Shown in pieces: positions 60,675 to 62,657 of a stretch of 64,000 nt of DNA. The notes beneath the pieces are model-generated. The model ran no database searches, was not told where the DNA came from, and saw nothing but the letters and a program-made list of their open reading frames with translations. The stretch's first letter is position 1, and the number at the start of each line of letters is the position of its first letter. Source of the DNA: Pseudoxanthomonas gei (GTDB taxonomy: Bacteria > Pseudomonadota > Gammaproteobacteria > Xanthomonadales > Xanthomonadaceae). The stretch lies in contig NZ_QOVG01000003.1 in the NCBI RefSeq assembly GCF_010119615.1, positions 124,001 to 188,000 of the forward strand. Reading direction: 5' to 3'. A program made the translations under genes and the position numbers.

Positions 60675-61325
60675 ATGGCAGCCATGACTGCCCGAGCCCT
60701 TTCCGCCCTCGACCGCCTGCTGGTGGATGCCCAGAACGCACTGGATACCGTGGCCGGGAAACCCCTCGCCCGACGCCCCAATCCAGCCGCAGACACGGCC
60801 GATGTGGAGCTGGACGAGGCCGAACGCCGCCACGCCGCCGGCCTGATGCGGATAAACCACGTGGGCGAGGTCTGCGCCCAGGGCCTGTACGTTGGTCAGG
60901 CCGCGGTGGCGCGCGACCCGCAGACCCGCGAGCACCTGCTGGAAGCGGCCCAGGAAGAGACCGACCACCTGGCCTGGTGCGGCGACCGCCTGGCCGAGCT
61001 GGGCAGCCGCCCCAGCCTGTTCAACCCGCTCTGGTACGCCGGCAGTTACGCGCTGGGAGCGCTGGCCGGCCTGCGCGGCGACGGCTGGAACCTGGGCTTC
61101 GTGGTGGAAACCGAACACCAGGTCGAGGCCCACCTCGACGAACACCTGCAGACGCTGCCTGAAGCCGACCTGCGCAGTCGGGAAATCATCAAGGTGATGA
61201 AGGCCGACGAGGCCCGCCATGCCGACCATGCCGAAAAAGCAGGTGCGCGCATCCTGCCGCAGCCGATTCCGGCGTTGATGACGGCCGCTTCGAATCTCAT
61301 GAAAGCCGTGGCCTACCGGCTCTGA
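60675..61325 (+). CDS. coq7: 2-polyprenyl-3-methyl-6-methoxy-1,4-benzoquinone monooxygenase
   Basis: 216 residues, di-iron hydroxylase of ubiquinone biosynthesis. Ligands are seen in [19 protein letters not shown] (Glu), [10 protein letters not shown] (E..H), [10 protein letters not shown] and [10 protein letters not shown] (E..H). It hydroxylates demethoxyubiquinone. Starts at 60675 (GGGA 9 bases upstream) and 60684 are both possible, three codons apart. Divergent from rplM. Confidence 0.93.
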
Positions 61326-61366: not shown

Positions 61367-61684
61367 CTAAGCCGAGGTGAGCTTCAGGCCGATCGCGCCG
61401 CTGACGATCAGGGCGATACACAGCAGTCGCGCCGGCGAGGCGCTTTCCGAAAACAGCACCAGTCCCAGGGTGGCCACGCCGACCGCACCGATGCCGGTCC
61501 AGATCGCGTAGGCGGTGCCCACCGGAATGGTGCGCAACGCCTGGGTCAGCAACCACAGGCTGATCGCCGCTGCGGCCACGGTGCCGATGCTGGGCCACAG
61601 GCGGGTGAACCCTTCGGTGTACTTCAGGCCGATTGCGAAGCCGATCTCGAAGATTCCGGCCAGCAGCAGATAGATCCAGGGCAT
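61367..61684 (-). CDS. gdx: Gdx (SugE-type) guanidinium exporter, SMR family
   Basis: 105 residues, four TM helices, [20 protein letters not shown] with the essential membrane Glu13 of SMR antiporters. The GFTRLWP segment after TM1 fits the Gdx/SugE branch rather than EmrE. It exports guanidinium in exchange for protons. The assignment is strengthened by the guanidine-II riboswitch directly upstream. The start at 61684 is preceded by GAGGAAAA. Converges with coq7. Confidence 0.92.
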
Positions 61685-61711
61685 TGGTGTTTTCCTCGAA
61701 AGCAGTTGCAT

Positions 61712-61747
61712 GAAACGAAAACGGCCCGGGGCTTTCGCCACGGACCG
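61712..61747 (-). terminator. attenuator terminator of the gdx riboswitch
   Basis: On the minus strand CGGTCC (61747-61742) can pair with GGGCCG (61727-61722) around an inner GGC-GAAA-GCC hairpin, followed at once by TTTTCGTTTC. The 5' arm covers the entire 3' arm of riboswitch hairpin 2, so the two structures exclude each other. This predicts termination without guanidine and read-through with it. Confidence 0.7.
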
Positions 61748-61795
61748 CCGTCGGTCTTGGTAGCGCAGGCGATGCCTGCGCGCGGGTCGTCCCGC
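61743..61795 (-). promoter_or_regulatory. guanidine-II (mini-ykkC) riboswitch upstream of gdx
   Basis: Two short hairpins with ACGR tetraloops, the defining feature of the class: GCGGG-ACGA-CCCGC (61795-61782) and GACCG-ACGG-CGGTC (61756-61743). Between them a GCGCAGGC-ATC-GCCTGCGC hairpin stacks directly on the first. The second loop ends 58 bases before the gdx ATG. Guanidine binding joins the two loops. The adjacent gene is the standard target of this class. Confidence 0.88.
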
Positions 61796-61862
61796 TTGTT
61801 TCTTGCTGGTCACACGATAACGGACGTTTGCCCAAGCCTGGGTAACCCCGGCCGATGGCCGA

Positions 61863-62657
61863 TTATTCGACCAGGTTGCGCCCGTGGAAAAGCTCCTCGA
61901 TCTCGCGCTTCAACAGCGCTTCGATCTTCATGCGCTCCTTGAACGAAAGATTCTTGGCCTTTTCCTCGAACAGGTACTGGTCCAGGTCGAAGTCCTTCAG
62001 ATGCAGCTTGGTGTGGAAGATGTTTTCCTGGTAGACGTTGACGTCGAACATCTCGTAGCGGGACTTGATGTTCTTGGCCAGGAAGTCCTGGATCGAGTTG
62101 ATCTTGTGGTCGATGTAGTGCTTCTTGCCTTTCACGTCGCGGGTGAAGCCACGCACGCGGTAATCGGCCACCACGATGTCCGACTCGAAGCTCTCGATCA
62201 GGTAGTTCAACGCCTTCAGCGGCGAAATCACCCCGCAGGTGGCCACGTCGATGTCGGCGCGGAAGGTAGCGATGCCATGCTGCGGATGGGTTTCGGGATA
62301 GGTGTGGACGGTGATGTGGCTCTTGTCCAGGTGCGCGACCACGGCATCGGAAATGATCTCCTTGCCGGCCATCTTCTTGTCGATCACCGGCTCTTCGGAG
62401 ATCAGGATGGTCACCGAGGCGCCCTGCGGATCGTAGTCCTGGCGGGCGACATTGAGGATGTTGGCGCCGATGATCTGGGCCACATCGGTCAGGATCTGGG
62501 TCAGCCGGTCGGCGTTGTATTCCTCGTCGATGTAGGCGATGTAGCGCTGGCGCTCTTCTTCCGAAACGGCGTAGCAGACGTCGTAGATGTTGAAGCTCAG
62601 CGCCTTGGTGAGGTTGTTGAAACCCTGGAGCCTGAGACGCGGAAGCGGTTTGACCAC
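61863..62657 (-). CDS. speD: S-adenosylmethionine decarboxylase proenzyme (class 1)
   Basis: 264 residues, E. coli-type SpeD. It self-cleaves at Ser113 in [14 protein letters not shown] to form the pyruvoyl cofactor and supplies aminopropyl groups for spermidine. Also seen are [20 protein letters not shown] near the start and [20 protein letters not shown]. It has its own gap on both sides; gdx is downstream with separate control. Confidence 0.96.

Follow-up and report, generated by a model that had tools for sequence, protein, structure and literature searches.

The described systems closest to the locus reported here are the guanidine-II (mini-ykkC, RF01068), guanidine-I (ykkC) and guanidine-IV riboswitches, of which guanidine-I has a different and larger aptamer than guanidine-II. 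In the portions available to us of a series of studies, guanidine-II RNAs are presented as regulators of translation, in some cases as a proposal (PMC5486947, PMC7544219, PMC9094411, PMC9300104, PMC12186494, PMC10907184, PMC9561414), and one of these terms the class "exclusively translational" (PMC9561414). The same text, as far as it was accessible, describes a translational member from Pseudomonas aeruginosa that responds at about 2.2 mM and works apart from transcription, like a known thermodynamic switch; the design described below would have to work differently. For the two other classes, the available parts of the literature describe control of termination: guanidine binding removes part of the terminator stem in guanidine-I, giving an ON switch by attenuation (PMC5486947), and a guanidine-dependent loop interaction prevents the terminator in guanidine-IV, an exporter ON switch (PMC12186494, PMC7736828) in which one of the two loops lies inside the terminator stem (PMC12186494). 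The accessible literature on guanidine-II and mini-ykkC, including guanidine riboswitches in Lysobacter and ykkC in Xanthomonas, yielded no terminator-type guanidine-II, and neither did the available portions of PMC2864571, PMC7266159, PMC12335538, PMC9481103, PMC7736828 and PMC3766115; an earlier mention in the primary papers of the class is possible.

Here, we analyse a leader upstream of gdx in a 64,000-nucleotide stretch of Pseudoxanthomonas gei DNA (the window), which we interpret, with a probability of roughly 0.83, as a guanidine-II type riboswitch with a transcription-attenuation expression platform, where binding, termination and read-through are assigned by analogy with the known classes. 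Like guanidine-II, the leader carries two ACGR-loop hairpins (P1 and P2), each closed by a G-C pair, upstream of gdx/sugE and is predicted to act as an ON switch; the 25-nt linker between them (61781-61757) falls inside the 7-40 nt given in the available text of PMC7544219. It differs from RF01068 in its P2 stem, which is CCG-ACGR-CGG rather than GGG-ACGR-CCC, in having a conserved hairpin as its linker, and in its predicted platform, an overlapping intrinsic terminator, with P2 well away from the gene, in place of an anti-Shine-Dalgarno. The leader departs from guanidine-IV in its ACGR loops and in the overlap of an entire aptamer hairpin with the 5' arm of the terminator. At the Rfam gathering scores, a tRNA was the sole match in the window, so that neither guanidine-I nor guanidine-IV was listed. 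The riboswitch class is already known; what would be new is the proposed expression platform, a terminator, together with the linker hairpin.

Organization of the gdx leader

Direct reading of the minus strand of the speD–gdx gap revealed P1, a linker hairpin, P2 and a U-tailed hairpin, in that order (Table 1), and all the parts named in the original prediction, namely ACGA and ACGG hairpins, a linker hairpin and an overlapping terminator before gdx, are present there. The downstream gene had been taken for a Gdx-type SMR exporter and, judged by its sequence, it is a SugE/Gdx-type SMR protein, scoring 130.5 bits against NCBIfam NF008512 SugE (cut-off 126).

Table 1. Features of the speD–gdx region, in positions of the window
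Feature	Position	Strand	Basis or remark
speD, adenosylmethionine decarboxylase, upstream gene	61863..62657	-	TIGR03331, 462.4 bits
-10-like hexamer TATCGT, 18 nt upstream of P1	61814..61819	-	candidate own promoter
P1, first aptamer hairpin, GCGGG-ACGA-CCCGC, perfect	61782..61795	-	direct reading
Linker hairpin GCGCAGGC-ATC-GCCTGCGC, abuts P1	61763..61781	-	direct reading
P2, second aptamer hairpin, GACCG-ACGG-CGGTC, perfect	61743..61756	-	direct reading
Intrinsic terminator-like hairpin CGGTCCGTGGC-GAAA-GCCCCGGGCCG	61722..61747	-	direct reading; relatives
U-rich tail TTTTCGTTT of the terminator	61713..61721	-	direct reading
Shine-Dalgarno-like AGGA of gdx, outside aptamer and terminator	61693..61696	-	direct reading
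gdx/sugE, SMR-family exporter, 105 aa, predicted controlled gene	61367..61684	-	NCBIfam NF008512, Pfam PF00893

Six bases separate the linker hairpin from P2, the entire 3' arm of which (61747-61743) forms the outer part of the terminator 5' arm. Because the terminator uses the whole of this arm, P2 and the terminator hairpin are mutually exclusive. The 96-nt stretch from 61800 to 61705 folds at -50.5 kcal/mol, compared with -34.6 (sd 3.29) for dinucleotide shuffles (z -4.83), none of 200 shuffles being as good. The terminator-like stem has 10 of 11 pairs formed, with a single U/C mismatch, presumably the reason why a simple terminator scan of the window did not list the minus-strand hairpin; the evidence for a terminator here comes from the fold and from conservation in relatives. 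The mismatch and the interrupted U tract of the window terminator count against the attenuation reading. Read on the plus strand, P1 (61782-61795) also resembles a terminator hairpin, followed by TTGTTTCTTG, and the nearest gene placed so that it would read into it, a coq7-like gene, ends at 61325, some 450 bases off.

Conservation and paired changes among relatives

We then searched 150 related genomes for the exporter protein, which was present in 91; from the 72 best places we examined what lies upstream of the gene in 70, including that of the window itself. The terminator-type architecture, identified by a motif in which an ACGN hairpin comes before the P2 core CCGACGRCGGYC, was found upstream of gdx in 45 of these 70 loci (again counting the window's own); on reading, 17 others appeared classical, with two G-rich ACGR hairpins near the start codon, and eight showed neither arrangement. 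At the protein level, the window shows 85% likeness to Luteimonas mephitis (L071).

The 45 loci were aligned (alignment A1). They were chosen by an intact P2 core, so that the P2 loop counts hold partly by selection, and the pair counts come from related sequences, whose relatedness is left in place by the shuffles. Across P1, the linker hairpin and P2, 92.8% of the cells are paired (87.9% in shuffles) and eight pairs are changed on both sides (3.5 in shuffles), with 35 such cells against 5.8; sliding the partners by one to three columns lowers pairing to 36-52%. The number of further pair types over these same helices did not rise above the shuffles (16 vs 14.1; 75 of 500 as high). P1 is 97.8% paired with three pairs changed on both sides, and its loop is ACGR in 44 of 45 loci and ACGT in one. 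The P2 loop is ACGR in all 45 (partly by selection), and the closing pairs of both loops (columns 8/13 and 56/61) are G-C in every locus.

Within P2, the three inner pairs are invariant, and of the two outermost pairs one is formed in just 20 of the 45 loci and the other in 34. Columns 53/64 within this hairpin are A-U in 34 loci and G-C in 11, and column 83, with which column 64 pairs in the terminator, holds a G in every one of the 45. Since G pairs with both U and C, the double-duty base in column 64 can follow its P2 partner while the terminator is kept. Judged from these sequences, this is the most telling column of the alignment, and the case for P2 is made by conservation together with this one pair.

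The terminator helix is 98.6% paired, with five pairs changed on both sides (a count reached by 2 of 500 shuffles) and 46 cells so changed against 8.8 in shuffles (reached by none of 500). Pairing falls to 22-52% when its partners are slid, and all measures exceed nearly every shuffle. At least four T among the first eight bases after the hairpin are present in 42 of the 45 loci. The RNAalifold consensus contains P1, the linker hairpin and the terminator, P2 being able to appear only as an alternative fold. Chance is a very unlikely explanation, given that tens of genomes share the two ACGR loops, the hairpin in the linker and a terminator overlapping P2 upstream of gdx. The transcription-attenuation reading of the original prediction is accordingly the best supported one, through the exclusive pairing, the paired changes and the 45 of 70 loci, with the guanidine response assigned by analogy.

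A GGCYCGG motif follows the U tract in 18 of the 45 loci (L034, L039-L043, L045, L047-L051, L053, L055, L057, L059, L060, L062). From its sequence, this motif could pair with the 3' arm of the terminator (CCGGGCC) in read-through RNA, locking the ON state.

The linker hairpin as a regular part of the element

A hairpin of at least 4 bp was found in all 40 distinct linkers, with a mean of -11.7 kcal/mol compared with -6.2 for letter shuffles, and in 30 of them no more than 10 of 200 shuffles folded equally well. Three of the five outer pairs of the hairpin in A1 show changes on both sides. Its presence in every distinct linker makes it a standard part of the terminator-type branch, contrary to the earlier supposition that it was not one. 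The hairpin may act as a spacer or serve for coaxial stacking.

A GTAG adjoining the hairpin on the plus strand had suggested that it might be a dispersed GTAG/REP-like repeat. This was not supported, as the pattern occurs in the own genome once exactly and once with one mismatch; the varied sequence of the hairpin across all 40 distinct linkers also speaks against an inserted repeat. With up to two mismatches, the pattern has 50 places in the own genome and a reversed control pattern 11, an excess of two-mismatch places that we take for GC-rich palindromes. A longer pattern of the hairpin has one occurrence in the window.

Detection by covariance models and distribution in the family

The original prediction had looked to the Rfam Guanidine-II model for a match, which it did not give: RF01068 scored 16.3 bits on the element in a narrow scan, below its gathering score of 32, in a weak alignment that took P1 for the second hairpin of the model, and at gathering it had no match in the window or in the own genome. 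When run on 20 chosen loci, RF01068 found none of 13 terminator-type loci (the window's own included) and six of seven classical ones. It likely misses the element because P2 is CCG-ACGR-CGG and not GGG-ACGR-CCC, and because the linker is a hairpin. Scores for BjrC68 (18.9 bits), P17 (10.6), snoR66 (17.3) and IRES_EBNA (10.1) at the element are far below the respective cut-offs; BjrC68 aligned over the terminator hairpin and P17 over the linker hairpin, which we take as chance likeness.

We therefore built a covariance model (R1) from the 45 loci of A1, which scores P2 by sequence; it gives the window, itself within the training set, 81.1 bits (E 3.4e-12). R1 matched 104 of 297 genomes of the host's family, about five of these matches probably being false, in 17 of 54 genera. 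It also matched 4 of 369 genomes of the host's class, all in the host's family and the window's own among them; surveys spanning over 40 genomes, with R1 as with RF01068, ran under more stringent filters, which lose weak matches. None of six classical loci was matched by R1 at E up to 0.01, and four additional weak matches (24.8 to 27.0 bits) fall on the strand opposite true elements. Among the carriers with a name are Luteimonas mephitis (L071) and Xanthomonas chitinilytica (L072), joined, on the basis of the motif, by a Lysobacter MAG (L089). The contigs of L235 (G192:C6) and L001 (G000:C33), which belong to different genomes, are both listed at 378888 bases, probably by coincidence.

By script, 78 of the 104 R1 matches keep the P1 ACGR loop, the P2 ACGR loop, the terminator and the overlap; these counts are fairer than the motif-based ones of A1, though R1 was trained on A1. 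The remaining 26 are, by script, without at least one feature; among them are eight Stenotrophomonas-type loci, loci with ACGT or ACGC in P1, some with decayed parts, the five weak matches named below, and L193 and L213, where the scripted search gave no terminator yet the hairpin is intact by reading. A gdx-like start lies downstream in 71 of 78 further R1 matches that were read; the start pattern failed in L185 and L222, whose elements are intact by reading. The five others (L242, L244-L247) are weak matches (E 2e-5 to 4e-4) without a gdx-like start, kept in the count of 104 and probably plain terminators; four of their five genomes have a classical RF01068 match elsewhere.

RF01068 matched 69 of the same 297 genomes, 68 of them over the cut-off. 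Its list shares six genomes with that of R1, four of which come from the five doubtful matches, and the terminator-type and classical architectures are thus nearly exclusive across the genomes of the family. Two genomes have both types on one contig: G065 C8 (L013, L275), whose classical match scores 30.2 bits, below the cut-off, and precedes a second SMR gene, and G336 C1 (L176), whose classical match scores 34.4 bits and lies about 5.6 kb from the terminator-type element.

Eight Stenotrophomonas-type loci (L227-L232, L234, L235) keep P1 with its ACGA loop, the terminator and, between them, a linker hairpin that is long, and have a P2 loop of ACCCA, ACCTA or GCCCA; the same changed-loop pattern occurs in L073-L075, as read, and in L076-L077, by hairpin list. 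In two relatives, L221 and L224, the P2 loop is still ACGA. From these sequences, it looks like sensing has been lost or altered, with the terminator left standing. The expectation that ACGR loops and terminator pairing persist in relatives thus holds for many loci, with 78 of 104 complete, and fails for the P2 loop of the Stenotrophomonas-type ones.

Separately, 44 of the 104 R1 matches have ACGG in both loops, a combination described as low in abundance, with ACGG loops less active, in the available part of PMC9300104. This counts against the preferred reading and would fit a terminator switch of the same layout that senses some other guanidino compound, or a protein, through its ACGR loops, as would the P2 stem unlike the Rfam consensus and a ligand that is here assigned by analogy. 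The ACG core kept in the loops is, however, tied to guanidinium in what is accessible of PMC7736828 and PMC9561414, the closing pairs are G-C throughout A1, and the gene encodes a SugE/Gdx-type exporter, so that we consider a different ligand quite improbable and retain guanidine as the expected one.

The speD gene and the source of the transcript

The C-terminus of speD is encoded upstream of the element in 44 of the 45 aligned loci, 7-73 nt ahead of P1, and the sole exception (L008) is on a contig that ends near there. A TANNNT hexamer is present 4-32 nt upstream of P1 in 29 of the 44 terminator-type loci with enough upstream sequence, compared with 12% of letter-shuffled stretches. No convincing -35 was found alongside these hexamers, and a consensus promoter scan gave a single sigma-70-like site, at the 3' end of speD. 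From these sequences, an own promoter, with an RNA starting just before P1, is possible. In four of 44 measured loci, P1 is only 7-19 nt past the speD stop, which leaves little room for a separate promoter and makes read-through from speD the likelier source. Where gdx is fed from speD, one hairpin might serve both as the speD terminator and as the gdx switch.

This arrangement raises the question of whether the U-tailed hairpin is an ordinary speD terminator, with gdx regulated on its own and the ACGR hairpins incidental. The short distance to the speD stop in nearly all loci, the four that hardly leave room for another promoter and the survival of the hairpin in Stenotrophomonas-type loci despite their altered P2 loop are all consistent with such a terminator. 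A plain terminator, however, needs none of the ACGR loops, P1, linker hairpin and P2 that are kept here with paired changes, and classical guanidine-II hairpins precede gdx in other lineages. We therefore regard this explanation as very unlikely by itself; ending the speD transcript may instead be a second job of the same hairpin.

Contrast with classical loci

For comparison, we fetched 30 classical loci using RF01068 and located the hairpin pair in 25 (L277 being doubtful). A mismatch-free scan, stricter than that applied to the R1 matches, found no terminator between P2 and the gene in any of the 25 assessable loci; three scan matches begin 41-58 nt past the P2 loop, inside the coding region by reading. 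Among 103 gdx rows, speD lies upstream in 46 of 48 terminator-type loci and in none of 44 classical ones, the two exceptions being L008, cut by the contig end, and L072, with a longer spacer. Linkage to speD goes with ancestry and so does not count as separate evidence. Resolution of the gdx tree is poor (104 columns, 103 rows, a quick method); the architecture label needs four changes on the free tree, and a constraint placing the 48 terminator-type rows and two Stenotrophomonas rows in one clade was not rejected (p-AU 0.741) and gave the higher-scoring tree. On these sequences, the gdx proteins of terminator-type loci are compatible with one clade; we do not claim a single origin.

Pairing of the linker with the Shine-Dalgarno sequence in the 45 terminator-type loci comes to 4.5 bp compared with 4.4 for shuffled linkers, in a crude test that gave little signal for 15 classical loci as well (5.5 vs 5.3). 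We also consider it very unlikely that guanidine frees the Shine-Dalgarno sequence, as in a translational guanidine-II riboswitch, with the terminator-like hairpin a by-product: known members are described as translational in the accessible parts of PMC9094411, PMC12186494 and PMC9561414, and they share the kind of gene and the loops, but P2 here is 49-104 nt from the start codon (45 loci), the Shine-Dalgarno sequence is outside the element, and the hairpin is U-tailed with paired changes in its stem.

Proposed mechanism

The preferred reading, a guanidine-II type aptamer coupled to a terminator, suggests the following order of events. RNA polymerase would make P1, then the linker hairpin, then P2. 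In the presence of guanidine, the two ACGR loops would form a kissing contact around two guanidinium ions that keeps P2 closed, so that the 5' arm of the terminator is occupied and transcription continues into the exporter gene. In its absence, the 3' arm of the terminator would invade P2 by strand displacement, P2 would open and transcription would stop at the U tract. Guanidine bound across the loops of P1 and P2 would slow this invasion for long enough that the polymerase passes the U tract. The predicted outcome is an ON switch, which is what an exporter gene would be expected to have.

By predicted energy, the terminator state is the more stable one in 44 of the 45 loci, with a median difference of 7.6 kcal/mol; in the window the difference is 9.2 kcal/mol, a gap large enough that a purely equilibrium switch would hardly work. 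As the predicted equilibrium default is the terminator, the choice should be kinetic. When growing transcripts of the window were folded in 2-nt steps from an assumed start at 61810, P2 was part of the minimum-energy structure between nt 68 and nt 86, with the terminator taking its place at nt 88. The modelled decision interval, between completion of P2 and emergence of the terminator 3' arm, would thus be about 20 nt. Guanidine binding, loop kissing, termination and read-through in the cell are what we infer from the described classes. Our firmer claim is that the element acts in the manner of a terminator-coupled guanidine-II riboswitch, because the curated model does not recognise it and its place in the class by ligand is inferred; that it is one is likely.

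Implications for the family

Taken together, these data lead us to lean towards the view that the element represents a separate branch of guanidine-II placed before speD-linked gdx in one family. In such a branch, P2 itself would be the antiterminator, a structural hairpin would replace the anti-Shine-Dalgarno linker and the decision would be kinetic. Transcripts of speD would end at this terminator too, so that speD read-through could feed gdx, and the second loop would since have been lost in Stenotrophomonas, leaving a terminator without a full sensor. The element also marks a blind spot, in that about a third of the sampled genomes of the family carry it and the standard RNA model missed all 13 tested loci. 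It offers a small natural system for testing how an aptamer with two kissing loops governs strand displacement while the RNA is being made. If our reading is true, the smallest guanidine riboswitch can drive two outputs, namely translation in previously described members and termination of transcription in the present one, and both outputs occur with related exporters within one bacterial family.
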